A program made the position numbers and the translations under genes. Shown piece after piece: positions 21,899-36,520 of a DNA stretch of 38,887 nt. Position 1 is the first letter of the stretch. The number at the start of each line of letters is the position of its first letter. The notes under the pieces were generated by a model, which was given only the letters and a program-made list of their open reading frames with translations, had not been told where the DNA came from and made no database searches. Source of the DNA: Clostridium sp. (GTDB lineage Bacteria; Bacillota; Clostridia; Clostridiales; Clostridiaceae); NCBI GenBank assembly GCA_029257045.1, contig JARIDB010000188.1, positions 1 through 38,887 on the forward strand, in the 5' to 3' direction.

Positions 21899-21927
21899 AG
21901 CTGCTTAATTTTTAGTAGCTTTTTTTA
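21899..21927 (+). terminator. Rho-independent terminator after secG
   Basis: A 7-bp stem (AGCTGCT 21899-21905 / AGTAGCT 21914-21920, one G-T pair), eight-base loop, then a run of T. Confidence 0.8.
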
Positions 21928-21933
21928 TTATTT

Positions 21934-22068
21934 AAGAAATTATAATAACGCACCTGTGGATAAGTTTTTATAATTTCTTCCTTTAGTTTTCAAGTAGACA
22001 CATATAAGTTTGCAATGAATTGGAATGAAACGACGGAATAAGCAAACTTATATATATCCACTTTTTTA
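21934..22068 (+). ncRNA. candidate structured RNA or leader upstream of rnr
   Basis: Two perfect 12-bp hairpins lie in tandem: AAGAAATTATAA (21934-21945) with 21968-21979, and ATATAAGTTTGC (22002-22013) with 22042-22053. The loop of the first contains GTGGATA (21956-21962), complementary to TATCCAC (22055-22061) just after the second, and a T-run (22062-22068) follows. The GTGGATAAGTTT segment could also pair with AAACTTAT plus ATCCAC, giving two competing folds. It does not match any riboswitch class or 6S/tmRNA pattern I recognise. It could be an attenuator of rnr or a separate small RNA. Confidence 0.45.
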
Positions 22069-24379: not shown

Positions 24380-24455
24380 TATAATAATATTTTATAGTTT
24401 GTTATTCTTTCTTCTGTTATAATAAAGAAAAAATGTAAAATGAGTGGTGATAGAC

Positions 24456-24926
24456 TTGGTAAGAAAGAAAAACAGCAATACCTTAGCAGAAAACAGAAAA
24501 GCAAGACATGACTATTTTATAGAAGAGACTATGGAAACTGGTATAGCTTTAGTTGGAACAGAAGTTAAATCTATAAGAGCTGGTAAATGTAATTTAAAAG
24601 AATGTTATGCAGATATTGATAATGGTGAAATAGTAATTAAAAATATGCATATAAGTCATTATGAACAAGGAAATATATTTAATGTAGATCCTTTAAGAGT
24701 AAGAAAACTTTTGCTTCATAAAGAACAAATAAAAAGATTTCAAGCAATTTTAAAAGAGCAAGGTTTAACCCTTATTCCTTTAACATTATATATGAAAAAC
24801 AATAAGGTAAAAGTTGCTTTAGGTTTATGTAGAGGTAAAAAGAGTTACGATAAAAGAGATACAATGCTTGAAAAAGCACACAAAAGAGATATTGAAAGAG
24901 AACTTAAAAACTCTAATAGGAATTGA
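24456..24926 (+). CDS. smpB: SsrA (tmRNA)-binding protein SmpB
   Basis: 156 residues from TTG 24456 (GGTGA at 24446-24450 serves as ribosome site); a GTG at 24444 would add four residues but lacks one. Conserved SmpB parts: N-terminal [13 protein letters not shown], then [43 protein letters not shown] and the C-terminal basic tail [24 protein letters not shown], which enters the ribosomal decoding site. It loads tmRNA on stalled ribosomes. ssrA, often next to smpB, is not seen downstream; a repeated structured element begins three bases after the stop instead. Confidence 0.95.
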
Positions 24927-24928
24927 GG

Positions 24929-25093
24929 ACTTGGCATTAATTACTTAGTGAATACGAGTGATAACGAAGCATGAGCTTAGTAATTAAGCCCGTATCCTGA
25001 AGCTCGTCTGAAGGATATGTTCCATTAAAAAAGAATGCAGATTGAACTTAGTACGAAAGCCCATCTACTGAACATAGAGAGGTAGATGTTCCT
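24929..25093 (+). repeat. structured repeat element, copy A
   Basis: About 165 bp matching 27805-27974 at roughly 85% by eye over most of its length. Predicted fold: a stem GGC-(A)-TTAATTACT with AGTAATTAA-GCC around a ~32-base loop containing GAGTGATAACGA, which is conserved in both copies; then CGTATCC/GGATATG (24991-24997 / 25013-25019); then CATCTAC/GTAGATG (25062-25068 / 25082-25088). The second and third hairpins share a module, CTTAGTA…AAGCCC-stem-CTGAA…stem-GTTCC, so the element is itself an internal tandem repeat. No tmRNA, tRNA or riboswitch class fits. Strand is arbitrary. Confidence 0.7.
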
Positions 25094-25145
25094 TTTAAAA
25101 TAAGCGAAAATAAATAAGAATAATATTTATAATAAGTAAATTTTT

Positions 25146-25168
25146 AAGAGGGCTTGATTAGTCCTCTT
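25146..25168. terminator. hairpin downstream of copy A
   Basis: A 9-bp stem (AAGAGGGCT 25146-25154 / AGTCCTCTT 25160-25168, one G-T pair) with a five-base loop. Only AATTT follows on the plus strand; the minus-strand side has AAATTT. Possible weak terminator for the smpB transcript. Confidence 0.5.
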
Positions 25169-25185
25169 AATTTCGTTATATCCTT

Positions 25186-25245
25186 GAATTGTGCAATAAA
25201 AATACCGCATATTCATTTGAATAATACGGTATTTTTAACAATTTA
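25186..25245. terminator. bidirectional terminator, shared block copy 1
   Basis: AAAAATACCG (25198-25207) pairs with CGGTATTTTT (25227-25236), T-rich on both strands, so it can end the minus-strand small membrane gene and transcripts from the left. The block from GAATTGTGCAATAAAAATACC to CATATTCA recurs at 26983-27013 with two or three changes. Confidence 0.85.
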
Positions 25246-25289
25246 ATATTTAACTTTATCTTAGTAATACTTTAAAACAAAGCCTTAAA

Positions 25290-25481
25290 TTAATACAGAT
25301 TAAAATGATTTAATAGAAGTCGTAATACATTTGAATATACATAAATCATCGCAAATATTTTTGCCTTTGCATAGTTTTTACTTTTTAAACCAATCAAAAA
25401 ATAAACAATCATTGCAATAAATGCAACGAGGATAACAATAGCAAGTGAGTATCTAAATAACTCTTGAATACTAACAGTCAT
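25290..25481 (-). CDS. small membrane protein of unknown function
   Basis: 63 residues with AAGGAGG seven to eight bases before ATG, its own promoter block (25529-25554) and its own terminator (25198-25236), so it is a real short gene. One strongly hydrophobic segment (about 11-31, LAIVILVAFIAMIVYFLIGL) is followed by a basic stretch and a second amphipathic, partly hydrophobic helix (IFAMIYVYSNVLRLLL). No signal peptide cleavage site or known motif. Size and layout fit a membrane-active peptide, an immunity-like protein or a small regulator of a membrane enzyme, but nothing distinguishes these. Confidence 0.7.
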   Translation of the reverse strand: MTVSIQELFRYSLAIVILVAFIAMIVYFLIGLKSKNYAKAKIFAMIYVYSNVLRLLLNHFNLY

Positions 25482-25528
25482 TTTCTTATATCCTCCTTAC
25501 TCAATTATACATAAATAATACAATTATG

Positions 25529-25554
25529 AGTTAATTATAACATGTTTTGTAAAT
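25529..25554 (-). promoter_or_regulatory. extended -10 promoter, shared block copy 1
   Basis: Read on the minus strand it gives TGTTATAAT (the -10 lies at 25534-25539), an extended -10 motif without a good -35. The whole block GAGTTAATTATAACATGTTT is identical at 27700-27719, upstream of the lipoprotein gene. Confidence 0.65.
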
Positions 25555-25561
25555 ACCATAC

Positions 25562-25771
25562 TATTCAATTTTCAAAGAACATTTTCATTACTTAATTCGT
25601 AGTAGCTACATAAAGGGTATAAATTAGGTTTAGTGCATTTGGTAGAAACAACTTTAGGTTAATTCTTATGGAAGACCCTGTCATTGACTCAATTCATTTT
25701 TGGATGAACTAAAGAATAGTACATTAGATATATTATTTAGGAAATATATAGAAAATAAATTATAATAATAT
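25562..25771. other. intergenic stretch, nothing recognised
   Basis: No gene, hairpin or repeat recognised between the shared promoter block and the terminator at 25772. Confidence 0.4.
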
Positions 25772-25815
25772 AAAACCAGTGCTGTAGTTGAAATCTTTAC
25801 TACAACACTGGTTTT
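25772..25815. terminator. bidirectional terminator
   Basis: A 17-base arm (25772-25788) pairs with 25799-25815 with one mismatch. AAAA/TTTT ends make it usable in both directions; on the minus strand it ends the three-helix membrane protein gene that stops at 25838. Confidence 0.88.
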
Positions 25816-25837
25816 ATTAAGATAAATAGTTTGTTCA

Positions 25838-26272
25838 TTAAGGCTCATATGGATAAGGAAAATCAGGAGATCTCTCCATAAAGAATATATTAACGGGAAC
25901 GTAATAAATAGTTATCACATCACCCCAAGAATGATCTTCCATTGCAATTACTTTTTGTCCTTTTAATTCCGTATAATATGAATCTGTATTAAATGCTCTA
26001 ATAAAACTAGTAGTGAAGAGAAGTATAAATGCTATAAAAGCTATAATAGGATAGCCTAATAACTTTAACCAGATACTTCTTTTATTTATAATTAAATAAC
26101 ATGGAATTATTATAAAGAGTGTAATTATAAAAGCATATCGGTAGTAGATTATAGAAAGACTAAGCCAATGCCTATAAACTAAATTGTTTTTTATACATAT
26201 ATAATCTAATAGAAATGTACTAAAAAATATAATTGTTAAAATATATCTACTCTTCATATTTTTAATTTTCAT
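25838..26272 (-). CDS. membrane protein of unknown function, three helices
   Basis: 144 residues, AGGGGG before ATG. Three predicted membrane segments (about 10-27, 46-62 and 72-91) and a ~50-residue C-terminal domain with a polar, aromatic pattern (EDHSWGDVITIYYVPVN). A basic N-terminus suggests it lies inside, which would put the C-terminal domain outside. I do not recognise the family. It lies 59 bases downstream of the acidic gene at 26332-26814 on the same strand, so the two may be co-transcribed and end at the terminator at 25772-25815. Confidence 0.65.
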   Translation of the reverse strand: MKIKNMKSRYILTIIFFSTFLLDYICIKNNLVYRHWLSLSIIYYRYAFIITLFIIIPCYLIINKRSIWLKLLGYPIIAFIAFILLFTTSFIRAFNTDSYYTELKGQKVIAMEDHSWGDVITIYYVPVNIFFMERSPDFPYPYEP

Positions 26273-26317
26273 GTAATATACCCCCTATACCAATCTTAAT
26301 ATAATACTAGATTTCAT

Positions 26318-26340
26318 ATTTATTTATTTATTTATTTTTT
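26318..26340. repeat. short (TTTA)n tract
   Basis: Five or so TTTA units overlapping the 3' end of the acidic protein gene (its last codons are Lys-rich). Slippage here could alter that protein's last residues. Confidence 0.7.
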
Positions 26341-26814
26341 AAGTTTTTTATTCCATTGATGTAAATCTTGAGCATCAGAGTAATGGCTAAGGATTCTATT
26401 TGATAAGTCGTCATCTTTGCTTAAGAATATAGTATAACTACTGTCAACGCAAATAATTTCAGCAATAGCCAAAGGGTGTTGAGTATGGACCTCTTCTCCT
26501 CCATATTTCCATTCACTATCAAATGTAGGTATTACAGATAGATTATTTATGTCTATATCTGTTGATTTATCAAAAGCAGATAAAATGCCCCAAACAAACT
26601 GAATATCATTATTTTTAACCAGATGAGTTAGTTCATCCCCTGATAACAATACAACTCTATCATTAAAGATATCTTTATCTGAGGGAAAAGAATAGCACTC
26701 ATGCTCGGTAATTAACCAGTTAAATTCTCGCTGTCGCCCCTCTAAAGCATCAAATATAAGTTTTATATCCGTATGTATAGGCATTTGTGAGGAATCTTTT
26801 ATTATTATATTCAT
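26332..26814 (-). CDS. acidic cytoplasmic protein of unknown function
   Basis: 160 residues, GGTGG before ATG, no signal peptide or membrane segment. Notable blocks are FNWLITEHECYSFP (about 31-44), LLSGDELTHLVKNNDIQFVWGILSAF (split here: LLSGDEL near 56-62, QFVWGILSAF near 71-80) and QHPLAIAEIICVDSS…FLSKDDDL (about 111-136). This acidic, single-domain pattern is reminiscent of immunity-type or DUF2691-like small proteins, but I cannot assign it. It would be the first gene of a possible pair with the membrane protein at 25838. The base composition is slightly higher in GC than the surrounding core genes. Confidence 0.65.
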   Translation of the reverse strand: MNIIIKDSSQMPIHTDIKLIFDALEGRQREFNWLITEHECYSFPSDKDIFNDRVVLLSGDELTHLVKNNDIQFVWGILSAFDKSTDIDINNLSVIPTFDSEWKYGGEEVHTQHPLAIAEIICVDSSYTIFLSKDDDLSNRILSHYSDAQDLHQWNKKLKK

Positions 26815-26982
26815 ATATTACCACCAAACTTCCAGTTGATTTTACATGTTTTACTACTTATTAATTTAATTTGAAGAGGGAACTTTTAAAAGTTTTCATA
26901 AAATATAGTTAATTAAATGTTTTTTGTATTATATATTTATTATACATAAAAAAGTGAGTTTGAAACAATATCTTCCAAGTTT
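26815..26982. other. intergenic stretch, nothing recognised
   Basis: Should contain the promoter of the minus-strand 26332-26814 gene; no convincing -35/-10 pair or hairpin found. Confidence 0.35.
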
Positions 26983-27045
26983 AAATTGTGCAATAAAAAA
27001 TACCACATATTCACTTTTAAATGATGCGGTATTTTCATTATTTGT
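26983..27045 (-). terminator. terminator, shared block copy 2
   Basis: The block AAATTGTGCAATAAAAAATACC…CATATTCA repeats 25186-25215. AAAATACC pairs with GGTATTTT (27028-27035) to form the hairpin. It follows the 3' end of the minus-strand lipoprotein gene at a distance of about 130 bases. Confidence 0.75.
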
Positions 27046-27173
27046 TATTTAAATTTCCCTCATAACATATTAAAATAGCTACGAAACAATTGAAATTAAA
27101 TGAAGTTAAGTTATCTGAATATGAAAGCATTCCATATCTAGCCACCCAACTTTACCTTAGCAAGGTTTGGAGA

Positions 27174-27647
27174 TTACTCGCCAGCGAGAACCCTCTTTAG
27201 ACTTGCATTTATAGCCTCAGAGTTTTCAGGATGTTCCATAAGCAATCCAGTTGACTCCATAATAGCAGCAGACTGTGAGGTTTGTACTGATTGTTTTACT
27301 TTAGGATCATCAATAGAATCAATGTAATCCTTTTGTTTCTGCCAAGCTTCTTTTATTAAGTCATAGTATTCTTTTTCAGTTGCTTCTGGTTGTGTATCTA
27401 GTTTAGTGTCTTGTTGTGTATTTTTTTGTACATCTTCATTCTCTTGTTTGCTTTCTACTGCATTTTCAACAGAGGGAGATGTAGTTTCTAAAATTTCTTC
27501 TCCCGAACTTTGAGTGCTGCTAACAGATTGGCTTGTACTTGATTTAGAAAAATTATCTTCTCCTGCTGAATTATTTTTCTGTCCACATGCGACAAGTGAC
27601 AGAGATAATAACAATAATCCAAATTTAAAAAATAACTTTTTATTCAT
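27174..27647 (-). CDS. lipoprotein of unknown function
   Basis: 157 residues, GAGGAG before ATG. Signal peptide with a lipobox LVAC ending at Cys21 (…LSLSLVACGQKN), so it should be lipid-anchored on the outer face of the membrane. Residues 22-90 are a low-complexity Ser/Thr/Gln/Glu linker typical of surface lipoproteins. A compact helical C-terminal domain (YYDLIKEAWQKQKDYIDSID … SLKRVLAGE) follows; I do not recognise it. The GC content is visibly above that of neighbours and the style is lactobacillales-like, suggesting horizontal transfer. It is flanked by the shared promoter and terminator blocks. Confidence 0.75.
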   Translation of the reverse strand: MNKKLFFKFGLLLLSLSLVACGQKNNSAGEDNFSKSSTSQSVSSTQSSGEEILETTSPSVENAVESKQENEDVQKNTQQDTKLDTQPEATEKEYYDLIKEAWQKQKDYIDSIDDPKVKQSVQTSQSAAIMESTGLLMEHPENSEAINASLKRVLAGE

Positions 27648-27699
27648 TTCACATCTCCTCGCAAAATAGATATTCTATTATATATTTTAATACAACTTT

Positions 27700-27725
27700 G
27701 AGTTAATTATAACATGTTTTATAAA
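27700..27725 (-). promoter_or_regulatory. extended -10 promoter, shared block copy 2
   Basis: Minus-strand TGTTATAAT (-10 at 27706-27711), upstream of the lipoprotein gene; same block as 25529-25554 with one change near its right end. Confidence 0.65.
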
Positions 27726-27804
27726 TGTGGAATAGAAATAGTATTTTCCAGATTGAAAGTTGAGGATAGCTTTTATTTTATAATTTCCATCCTTGGCATT
27801 GAAC

Positions 27805-27974
27805 ACTTGGCATTAATTACTTAGTGGATATGAGTGATAACGAGATATTAACTTAGTAATTAAGCCCATCTACTGAAGCTTGTCTGAAGCATATGTTCCA
27901 TTCAAAAAGAATGAAGACTGAACTTAGTGTGAAAGCCCATACACCGAAAGGAGAGTGGTAGATGTTCACCTTTT
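27805..27974 (+). repeat. structured repeat element, copy B
   Basis: Second copy of the element at 24929-25093, same orientation. The first stem and its loop motif GAGTGATAACGA are kept. The second hairpin's left arm is CATCTAC (27867-27873), which no longer matches its own right arm (GCATATG) but is complementary to GTAGATG (27958-27964) of the third hairpin, so copy B may be rearranged or fold differently. A nine-base CTTGGCATT is doubled at its left edge (27792-27800 and 27806-27814). Confidence 0.7.
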
Positions 27975-28082
27975 TATGGAAAGTATATGAACTTTGGAGT
28001 AGAATAGTATTATAGAATAGAAAAAATTAGATTTTATATAGATGGTTATATTATAGGGTGTAAAGGGGAGGTGAACATATTA

Positions 28083-29081
28083 ATGGAGAATATAAATAAG
28101 AAAAAGAAATCTACAGGTGCTTTTTTTACTTTTGAAAATATAATTGGAGAAAGTGAAGAGATTAAAAGTATTATATCTAATTGTAAGTTAATATCTGATA
28201 GCCCATCTACAGTTTTAATAGAAGGTGATAGTGGTACAGGGAAAGAAGTTTTAGCTCAAGCTATACATAATCATAGTGTAAGAAAAGACAATAGATTCAT
28301 TGCTATAAATTGTGGTGCTATTCCTAAGAATATAATTGAAAGTGAACTTTTTGGGTATGAAGAAGGAGCTTTTACAGGTGGAAAAAAGGGTGGAAACTTA
28401 GGTAAAATAGAACTTGCTCATAAAGGAACTTTATTTTTAGATGAAATAGGTGATATGTCTTATGATATGCAAATAAAGTTACTTAGAGTTCTTCAAGAAG
28501 GTAGAATAACAAGGGTTGGTGGAAATTATGAAATACCTGTAGATATGAGAGTAATAGCAGCAACTAATAAGAATTTAAGAGAAGAAGTTAAAAAAGGAAG
28601 ATTTAGAGAAGATCTCTATTATAGACTTTGTGTAATACCTATTAGAATTCCTTCATTAAAAGAAAGACGGGAAGATATAAGGGAACTTATAGATTATTTT
28701 TTAGAAATTAAATCAATAAGGCTAAATAAAGATATAAGAAAATTAGATGAAGGATTATTAAATCAACTTTTAAATCATAGCTGGCCAGGCAATATTAGAG
28801 AACTTGAAAATACAATAGAAAATATAGTTAATTTAAATGGAAGAATGTCTTTAGATATTTTTAAAGAAGAAAAAGAAGTGGAATTTTGCTTAAAAGAAAA
28901 ATGTCCTAAATATAAAAGCTTTAAATTAGAAAAAGAATTTAATTTAGCTGTTATAGAAGAAAAAACTATTATAAGAGCTTTAAACTTTAATAACCAAAAT
29001 ATATCTAAAACTGCAAAAGCTTTAGGGATAAGTAGAAATACATTATATTTAAAAATGAAAAAATATAAGATTATAGAATAA
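28083..29081 (+). CDS. sigma-54-dependent transcriptional activator, AdhR-like
   Basis: 332 residues from ATG 28083; AGGGGAGG at 28064-28071 overlaps the in-frame GTG at 28071, so the ATG is preferred. There is no sensor domain: after ~20 residues it enters the AAA+ domain (IIGESEEIK, Walker A GDSGTGKE, ESELFGYEEGAFTGG, Walker B GTLFLDEIGD, then RFREDLYYRL and WPGNIRELEN). The sigma-54-contact loop reads GAFTGG, where almost all family members have GAFTGA. A Fis-type helix-turn-helix ends the protein (NISKTAKALGISRNTLYLKM). It should activate the -24/-12 promoter just downstream, in front of the alcohol dehydrogenase, as described for AdhR in solventogenic clostridia. Confidence 0.92.
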   Translation: MENINKKKKSTGAFFTFENIIGESEEIKSIISNCKLISDSPSTVLIEGDSGTGKEVLAQAIHNHSVRKDNRFIAINCGAIPKNIIESELFGYEEGAFTGGKKGGNLGKIELAHKGTLFLDEIGDMSYDMQIKLLRVLQEGRITRVGGNYEIPVDMRVIAATNKNLREEVKKGRFREDLYYRLCVIPIRIPSLKERREDIRELIDYFLEIKSIRLNKDIRKLDEGLLNQLLNHSWPGNIRELENTIENIVNLNGRMSLDIFKEEKEVEFCLKEKCPKYKSFKLEKEFNLAVIEEKTIIRALNFNNQNISKTAKALGISRNTLYLKMKKYKIIE

Positions 29082-36392: not shown

Positions 36393-36413
36393 TATCTAAA
36401 ACTTAATATATGA

Positions 36414-36500
36414 ACAGGGGAGCTTGTATAGCAGGCTGAGATAAAGTAATCAAACTTTGACCCTTAAACCTGATGTGGGTAATGCCAACGTAGGAAGAAG
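36414..36500 (+). promoter_or_regulatory. TPP (THI-box) riboswitch
   Basis: Contains the conserved parts CAGGCTGAGA, then ACCCTTAAACCTGATGTGGG and TAATGCCAACGTAGGAA. It binds thiamine pyrophosphate and, with the terminator at 36521-36553, should switch off the operon when thiamine is plentiful. Confidence 0.95.
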
Positions 36501-36520
36501 TAATTTGATTTGCTTATTAT

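Follow-up and report, generated by a model that had tools for sequence, protein, structure and literature searches.

The question raised by this locus, in a window of 38,887 nucleotides of Clostridium sp. DNA, is what the two look-alike structured stretches are that stand on either side of a block of small reading frames. The initial annotation regarded them as a functional RNA or a mobile non-coding element. The account that is probably correct is that both, here called copies A and B, are members of one family of structured mobile elements, small, non-coding and non-autonomous, which are moved in trans and land at gene 3' ends. The repeated unit is best read as BOX-like in lifestyle, and it would act as RNA or as sense-strand single-stranded DNA.

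The likeness of the pair, originally put at about 85%, was borne out by alignment of 24919-25091 with 27795-27967 (84% identity, 84-86% across alignments), each being a two-hairpin element. With copy A as query in a BLAST-type search of the genome (40 candidates scored), copy B was the second-best place (E 2.5e-48). The conserved loop motif that had been pointed out, GAGTGATAACGA, is common to copy A (24956-24967) and copy B (27832-27843). Folding against shuffled sequences gave z values of -2.0 for copy A and -2.8 for copy B, with 7/200 and 2/200 shuffles as good. The description of each copy as a structured element of ~165 bp needs correction, each copy being made of one full unit followed by a truncated second unit (Table 1). 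Contrary to the proposal that copy A begins three bases past smpB, the repeat extends back to ~24917-24919, within smpB, and the TGA stop (24924-24926) falls inside it. The pairing in copy B of the left arm of hairpin 2 with the right arm of hairpin 3, also noticed earlier, occurs in the minimum-energy fold; two local hairpin-2 pairs are broken in copy B. Because an ATCTACC/GGTAGAT arm is found repeatedly, in many unit copies, this cross-pairing is read as probable decay or conversion between copies.

Table 1. Positions of the features of the window. Bit scores are those of model R2, which was trained partly on window copies A and B.
Feature	Position	Strand	Remarks
Host repeat H0-H4 without unit ('empty', L193), spacer 17 nt	21920..22062	+	right limit by eye
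smpB, 3' end overlapped by copy A	24444..24926	+	SmpB, E 2.9e-59
Copy A full unit	24917..25023	+	model match 24931-25023, R2 92.2 bits
Copy A 5' extension	24917-24930	+	overlaps final smpB codons and stop
Copy A sub-hairpins	M1 ~24933-24990, H2 ~24991-25019	+	limits counted by hand
Copy A second unit, 5'-truncated	25034..25092	+	R2 25.1 bits, E 0.007; own-genome search E 0.037
Probable smpB terminator hairpin, now 3' of copy A	25146..25178	+	by eye, not scored
Block between copies: four ORFs (63, 144, 160, 157 aa)	25290..27647	-	
Likely H0 right-arm remnant (ATAATTTCCATCC) directly 5' of copy B	27780..27792	+	H0 ends compared by eye
Copy B full unit	27793..27899	+	model match 27807-27899, R2 85.0 bits
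Copy B 5' piece	27793-27806	+	equals start of type-b unit
Copy B sub-hairpins	M1 ~27809-27866, H2 ~27867-27895	+	
Copy B second unit, degraded	27906..27968	+	R2 14.7 bits, E 0.96, not significant on model score alone; backed by alignment to copy A
Sigma-54-type activator gene	28071..29081	+	

The unit is non-coding, ~90 nt long with conserved ends WGGC...GTTCC, and folds into a long hairpin (M1) followed by a second hairpin (H2). Within M1 one A is bulged out, and an internal loop made up of a U.U and a tandem G.A/A.G pair is nearly invariant among copies. Covariation was assessed in three alignments, the first a sequence-only MAFFT alignment of 23 copies and the other two fitted to the model, which favours paired letters; changes on both sides were found in 12, 25 and 26 of the 27 stem pairs, respectively. 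The compensatory changes, proposed at the outset as a check, went beyond both shuffled and slid controls. Realignment of 71 of 92 distant copies without the model gave the same fold, with double changes in 24 of 26 pairs and the H2 pairs holding in just 58-91% of rows, and the fold is kept at ~45% identity. Cells with G.U outnumbered those with A.C by 128:50 and 76:22 in two sets, which points to one strand as the folded one. Strong compensatory change and the conserved internal loop argue for the RNA-function half of the original reading. The statement that the element fits no recognised RNA class also stood: no Rfam 15 family reached its gathering cut-off on the unit in the window or in the 20 of 77 distant loci searched, and the one Rfam match in the window was a TPP riboswitch away from the copies. 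At E<=10 there were eight sub-threshold matches over 24800-28100, the best on copy A being a CRISPR repeat model (E 2.4).

The copies are not a private pair. The genome itself holds 42 unit places at E<=0.1, and the unit was found in 26 of 206 genomes of its own family, in 54 of 397 genomes of a second family of the same class, probably Lachnospiraceae, and in 10 of 391 genomes of an even draw of the class, four of them outside the own family. The searches over 40 genomes scored 73, 20, 19, 11 or 10 candidates each, and copy numbers from them are lower bounds because so few were scored; the BLAST-type searches scored 40. The set of copies used for most counts (A4; 115 hits from 94 loci) was selected, with re-fetched overlapping loci mostly excluded, and does not hold every place; some of its copies are contained in model R2, which later matched them. 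One duplicate (L029) was excluded from the counts of flank complementarity, relatedness and family gene ends, and two loci (L041 and L197) lie at contig ends with the same 3' stretch, the assembly being a draft. In the second family 70 of the places found were read. BLAST gave no match at E<=1e-3 in plasmids (two queries) or phages (one query), and viral contigs held 0 exact matches to one 22-letter pattern.

Movement of the unit is suggested by a host repeat that occurs with and without it. Among 28 stretches the spacer of this repeat was 16-17 nt in 16 and 105-107 nt in six, with six unclassed, so that the unit is present or absent as one block, and filled minus empty repeats leave an insert of 89-90 nt. 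No target-site duplication was seen between filled and empty repeats, which are paralogous pairs where 0-1 nt is unresolvable. Because they are paralogues, loss of the unit is possible as well. The six filled repeats include both unit subtypes (by eye) and all have a derived spacer, TTAC[T/C]T, so that a small number of insertions may lie behind them. Of three sites compared between two genomes (G003 and G007), with flanks 91-93% identical, a single one differs, and the difference there is larger than the unit itself.

Relatedness among copies was found to vary by lineage. For 68 of 96 copies, against 15 with shuffled labels, the nearest relative was another copy in their own genome; such cases were frequent in G000 (31/33), G015 (10/10) and G021 (20/21) and less so in G016 (2/4), G003 (1/7) and G007 (1/5). 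In the second family this held for just 25 of 64 units; units at the L10 gene resemble one another (0.77), and for 17 of 47 units, against 3 when shuffled, the nearest relative was at the same gene in another genome, and therefore some unit positions are inherited. Tandem arrays are also present. The left end of the unit showed no fixed bases or short target (67 de-duplicated flanks of 114). Flank complementarity above the shuffled 95% level was found in G021 (10/20), G015 (3/5), G016 (3/4), G003 (2/7), G007 (2/5) and others (3/27), with 0/1 in G010 and 0/28 in G000; a rule that every unit enters a hairpin loop was rejected on these counts, and palindrome nesting is thus lineage-specific. Dispersal, filled and empty sites and lineage-specific relatedness agree with the mobile-element half of the initial annotation.

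Units that touch a gene do so mostly in sense at its 3' end and often provide the stop codon. A gene 3' end lay at the 5' side of the unit in 19 of 98 own-family arrays, versus 3 at the 3' side, and the corresponding counts in the second family were 45 versus 4 of 85 arrays. Such sense neighbours include smpB and rumA, the latter making up 9 of the 19 own-family cases, and upstream frames in the second family (85 arrays) were ribosomal proteins in 48 of 71. Units also abut tRNA 3' ends at three of 33 loci scanned (L210, L271 and L219). Gene starts abut units too (10 L- and 8 R+ cases among the 85 arrays, counting ORFs from 45 codons upwards), and many arrays are without contact to any gene end. 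The genes that serve as targets are probably highly expressed.

The same distribution could belong to a resident RNA of the 3'-UTRs or gene junctions of translation operons, with a role in processing, stabilisation or protein binding, which recombination has spread and which is maintained at each site because it is useful there. The placement in sense at the ends of rumA, tRNA genes and genes for ribosomal proteins, a fold that outlasts such sequence divergence, the same-gene relatedness between genomes and several copies lying between same-strand neighbours such as rpmJ-rpsM and rplJ-rplL (second genes by eye) are all consistent with it. Such an RNA is nevertheless unlikely, given the patchy presence among second-family genomes, the dozens of dispersed copies in some genomes, the tandem arrays, the copies inside other repeats and the finding that in G000 no gene class is prominent upstream of units (by eye).

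The association with rumA suggests another origin. A rumA C-terminus lies directly upstream of a unit in 13 of 26 family genomes by strong profile matches, 5 of the 13 loci having belonged to the training set, and in 3 more by weak ones. In streptococci, rumA serves as an integration site for ICEs with a serine integrase (PMC4701971). Units could then be parts of the att sites of integrative elements that enter at the rumA 3' end by means of a large serine recombinase, and would spread with these elements; Resolvase and Recombinase domains, three each, were found among 129 unit-neighbouring ORFs, and at one locus (L200) a rumA-like tail is followed by a frame resembling a recombinase start (by eye). 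This origin is improbable: units start at four offsets in the rumA tail, with no fixed crossover (by eye), the rumA of the genome studied here has no unit though a recombinase-like frame adjoins it (by eye), gene-end copies in the second family are mostly at other genes, and the window copies are not at rumA.

REP sequences, associated with RAYT or Y1 transposases, are short hairpins with strand asymmetry, and the unit is like them in both. A REP-like or IS200/IS605-derived element moved as single-stranded DNA by a Y1 (HUH) transposase would also agree with the lack of a visible target-site duplication, but the co-occurrence of Y1_Tnp and units across genomes disfavours this origin and makes it very improbable. 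No Y1_Tnp was found at E<=1e-5 in three unit carriers, G021 (at least 24 unit matches), G007 (at least 5) and G011 (at least 1), whereas G042 and G045 have 23 and 25 Y1 copies and no unit, and the left flank offers no fixed short target. MITEs of DDE transposons are, like the unit, short, non-autonomous and dispersed; unlike theirs, the unit ends WGGC and GTTCC are not inverted repeats. No target-site duplication is visible in the filled and empty pairs, which are paralogues. Rickettsia palindromic elements lie inside reading frames, as does one unit copy (L077, in a 530-codon frame), whereas units within a called ORF, on either strand, were confined to 3/98 and 5/85 arrays.

The block between the copies had been taken as an accessory block bracketed by the pair. 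The distance from smpB to the sigma-54-type regulator is 3.1 kb here, 94 nt in G019, 262 nt in G010 and ~1.0-1.1 kb in six others; the two genes lie 94 nt to ~1.1 kb apart in 8 of 22 relatives, and the regulator is absent from the 1.5-kb smpB flank in the other 14. The first and last ORFs of the block have similar 39-nt stretches on their 5' side and similar hairpins on their 3' side. The four ORFs gave only weak Pfam matches, the best being DUF2691 (E 2.7e-5), just under its cut-off, and none to a domain for mobility, such as that of a transposase or integrase. If the copies were the two ends of a single composite transposon or island in the interval from smpB to the regulator, this would account for a block exactly between them at a site shorter in those 8 relatives and for internal duplications suggestive of a local history, but it is the least probable origin of all, as the block lacks such domains, the copy A core is equally close to another copy (L034) and to copy B (0.87 each) and 39 of the 42 places lie elsewhere in the genome; a special bracketing role of the pair is likewise not supported. 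Instead, copy A would represent a landing at the smpB end and copy B one in a host repeat upstream of the regulator; the block may have arisen together with the copies, and a special mechanism is unneeded. The SmpB C-terminus reads ..NSNRN, and among 22 relatives (7 of them unreadable) 13 of the 15 readable end in Y and the other two in R and E. A tmRNA link to smpB was rejected, since neither a tRNA nor a tmRNA came up when ARAGORN scanned 23 smpB loci together with as much as 1.5 kb of flanking DNA.

Among described repeats, the BOX elements of Streptococcus pneumoniae are small, structured, mostly intergenic, modular and of variable length; the accessible portions of PMC3049150 describe them as nearly absent in other streptococci, likely to affect co-transcribed genes, parasitic in the opinion of the authors and with a mover still not settled. 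The likeness of the unit to BOX is one of lifestyle (small, structured, mostly intergenic). Unlike BOX, it occurs in other hosts, which belong to two or more families of a single class, often lies in sense at gene 3' ends, in one of these families by preference those of ribosomal-protein genes, and has a nearly invariant internal loop. Open-licence PMC text yielded no clostridial or Lachnospiraceae repeat of this kind beyond two stem-loop families, Clop-1 of C. perfringens (93 bp, 44 copies) and Clot-1 of C. tetani (74 bp, 19 copies). Compared by description only, in the accessible portions of PMC2267715, these are like the unit in length, copy number, type I label, conserved structure and clostridial hosts; were the unit one of them, it would be a repeat catalogued in 2008 without its target or spread being described there.

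For a mobile element landing at gene 3' ends, a trans-acting enzyme would recognise the sense strand in its folded form, whether RNA or transcription-exposed single-stranded DNA; no mobilising enzyme was found for the ~90-nt unit. New copies would land at the 3' ends of highly transcribed genes, where insertion may be harmless because the unit brings its own stop codons. A more specific form of this reading, put forward tentatively and itself unlikely, is that a transcribed two-hairpin RNA is inserted at stop codons or 3' ends of abundant mRNA, tRNA and rRNA transcripts and copied back into the genome. Such RNA-level mobility would, if true, yield insertions that are in sense and leave no target duplication, at the genes for ribosomal proteins throughout the class Clostridia.

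The family lends itself to testing how very small mobile elements pick their landing sites. It offers clean handles in a covarying fold, a nearly invariant loop, exact ends, filled and empty sites in one genome and a taste for ribosomal-gene 3' ends, and its U.U and tandem G.A loop must, to judge from its conservation, be recognised by something. If target choice follows transcription, this would point to bacterial elements that move by way of RNA or R-loops, and if the unit is a resident RNA, an undescribed regulator or processing site would lie in some of the best-studied operons. Conserved genes such as smpB and rumA also seem to have their final codons altered by the unit, and the family therefore deserves annotation.

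The initial annotation had described two alike elements of ~165 bp, and this was borne out: copies A and B share 84% identity over 173 nt (mean column identity 86% in an alignment that included flanks), and with copy A as query, copy B was the second-best place in the genome (E 2.5e-48). Both carry a full unit of a ~90-nt repeat (WGGC...GTTCC, hairpin M1 then hairpin H2) with a shorter, decayed second unit behind it; that of copy B was by itself not significant in the model search (E 0.96). A start of copy A three bases past smpB did not stand, as the repeat begins already near 24917-24919 and takes in the final codon of smpB together with its stop. SmpB here ends in ..NSNRN; among the 15 of 22 relatives that were automatically readable, 13 end in Y and 2 otherwise. 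By eye, the window copies are of subtype a, their 14-nt 5' end being duplicated, and immediately before copy B lie the apparent end of H0, a hairpin of another repeat, and the first 14 nt of the second unit subtype.

Features of the window (R2, structure model built from 115 hits)
Feature	Position	Strand	Remarks
Copy A, full unit	24931-25023	+	R2 match, 92.2 bits; copies A and B were among the R2 training sequences
Copy B, full unit	27807-27899	+	R2 match, 85.0 bits; copies A and B were among the R2 training sequences
H0/H4 repeat	21920-22062		often directly after terminator-like T-runs (also loci L178-L197)
Common 39-nt stretch	25516-25554; 27688-27726		5' side of two minus-strand block genes
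Similar hairpin	25184-25235; 26981-27035		3' side of two minus-strand block genes
TPP riboswitch	36406-36514		elsewhere in window

The two copies had been noted to bracket an accessory block; nothing indicates that the units moved it. The gap between smpB and the sigma-54-type regulator gene is 3.1 kb here and holds four minus-strand ORFs, none with a mobility domain; in relatives it measures 94 nt in G019, 262 nt in G010 and roughly 1.0-1.1 kb in six further genomes, and in 14 of 22 the regulator is absent from the 1.5-kb flank. Local duplications suggest that the block is a patchwork.

A BLAST search with copy A found at least 35 places in its own genome at E<=0.01 (best 40 of 49 candidates scored), and 23 units from these were aligned to build a first structure model, R1, with two hairpins, M1 of 19 pairs (the apical two included) and H2 of 8. 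R1 matched 42 places in the 2.66-Mb draft genome at E<=0.1, three of them within the window; by eye, two subtypes (a and b) could be told apart, and some units stand in tandem. Compensatory changes, for which the initial annotation had proposed to look, exceeded both shuffled and slid controls in three alignments. In the sequence-only alignment of 23 copies both sides changed at 12 of 27 pairs, with 94.8% of cells pairing and a covariation score of 0.339 (0.160 shuffled, <=0.082 slid). The corresponding values were 25/27, 92.9% and 0.425 (0.178, <=0.073) for 109 distinct model-fitted copies, and 26/27, 94.6% and 0.598 (0.189, <=0.104) for 90 distinct model-fitted copies, nearly all from a second family of genomes. 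A sequence-only realignment of 71 of 92 distant copies regained the same fold with double changes at 24 of 26 pairs, the H2 pairs being kept in only 58-91% of rows. Letter conservation was strongest at unpaired positions, the U.U and tandem G.A/A.G of M1 (0.89-1.0; 0.97-1.0 in the second family). G.U cells outnumbered A.C cells in two alignments (128:50 and 76:22), although these cells are non-independent, model fitting favours G.U and strand-biased mutation could contribute; since equal selection on both strands predicts equal counts, it is probably the sense strand that folds, which could do so as RNA or as ssDNA. At L239 and some other second-family loci the H2 loop seems by eye to contain a further M1-like hairpin, as if units were nested in one another.

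The distribution of the unit is patchy. R1 at E<=0.001 found it in 12 of 59 relatives (own genome counted), all within the 36 of the same genus, and in the own family in 26 of 206 genomes and 9 of 46 genera. With R2 it was detected in 27 of 225 genomes of the order (E<=1e-4) and, at E<=1e-5, in 10 of 391 genomes drawn evenly from the class, of which four lie beyond the own family. In a second family, that of G458, R2 found it in 54 of 397 genomes and 48 of 334 genera; like contexts in a MAG labelled Coprococcus indicate that this family is probably Lachnospiraceae.

Units are frequently found behind genes, in sense with them. Among 98 arrays from the genus and own family (ORFs >=80 codons) a gene 3' end adjoined the 5' side of the unit in 19 and the 3' side in 3; rumA accounts for nine of the 19. 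With a rumA C-terminal profile, strong matches lay ahead of 13 copies in the sense direction, five of these loci belonging to the training set, and weak ones ahead of 3 more; nothing matched downstream of or antisense to copies. In the second family (92 units in 85 arrays, ORFs >=45 codons) the counts were 45 and 4, with abutting gene starts at 10 and 8 and five arrays within an ORF. An upstream frame of >=30 codons, whose end falls between 45 nt ahead of the unit's start and 24 nt inside it, was present in 71 of the 85 arrays, and 48 of these match ribosomal proteins (S8 14, S13 8, S14 7, S12 4, L10 4, L36 4, L11 3, L23 2, L29 2), a large enrichment since such genes are ~2% of all genes. Nine others matched SSB (2), GGGtGRT (2), HSP70, GrpE, RpoA, a glutamate dehydrogenase type and a semialdehyde dehydrogenase; the remainder had no match at E<=1e-4. 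Among 33 loci scanned for tRNAs, units abut the 3' end of tRNA-Gly at L210 and L271 (one genome) and of tRNA-Ile inside an rRNA operon at L219, and one lies 17 nt past tRNA-Met at L222. Many of the genes named here generally rank among a cell's most expressed. The unit of L077 (G031:C66) is contained in a reading frame of 530 codons and shares its strand. The own genome's rumA (L175, G000:C64) has no unit; by eye, an opposite-strand frame after it looks like the C-terminal part of a large serine recombinase. Repeated pieces that carry small hairpins and look like the 3' tail of rumA were seen by eye adjoining rumA or a unit (L066, L068, L070, L105, L106, L107, L113, L114), possibly layered remnants of earlier integrations.

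Evidence on movement came from a host repeat, hairpins H0 and H4, dispersed independently in the own genome at no fewer than ~40 places each (55 and 57 matching rows, both strands counted). H0-H4 spacing was 16-17 nt in 16 of 28 stretches and 105-107 nt in six, six being unclassed; the additional 89-90 nt are the unit, in identical position and orientation. All six filled host repeats have a derived spacer in common, so they need not represent six events. Between G003 and G007 (flanks 91-93% identical) one of three compared sites had the unit in one genome only, the difference there extending beyond the unit. Of 96 copies, 68 had their nearest relative in the genome that carries them (15 with shuffled labels), a pattern strong in G000 (the own genome), G015 and G021 and weak in G003 (1/7) and G007 (1/5); in the second family this held for 25 of 64 units. 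Unit edges are sharp, with a T-rich triplet at the right as the sole flank feature. In G021 (L086, L161; G021:C16:370502-370721) a short form of 72 nt is tandemly arrayed with a period of 74, three of the units being identical and an adjoining one diverged. By eye, a larger imperfect palindrome of ~330-380 nt with an extra hairpin apparently encloses the unit in G003, G007, G010 and G016 (L062, L063, L064, L065, L073, L074, L078, L080, L081, L085).

The initial annotation recognised no RNA class, and indeed no Rfam family reached its cut-off on a unit, in the window or in the 20 of 77 distant loci scanned. We rate the family among the small interspersed structured repeats, a known kind; in the literature searched for such repeats no description of its target habit was found. 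By lifestyle the nearest match is BOX (PMC3049150), and Clop-1/Clot-1 (PMC2267715), similar in length and host, may overlap with the present family. In streptococci, serine integrases are known to use rumA as a target (PMC4701971), and such targeting may help to carry unit copies between species.

The analysis shows a fold kept by selection with a bias towards the sense strand, a unit that is either wholly there or wholly missing, and a sense-oriented placement at gene ends. That the unit is a resident regulator keeps weight, given its preference for ribosomal-protein genes and a nearest relative at the same gene in another genome for 17 of 47 second-family units (3 when shuffled). A mobile parasite is nevertheless preferred, because presence is patchy and copies occur at unrelated loci and within other repeats. 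For such a parasite a trans-acting factor would recognise the M1 internal loop, insertion would follow transcription, and the TAG/TGA carried by the unit would spare the host gene.
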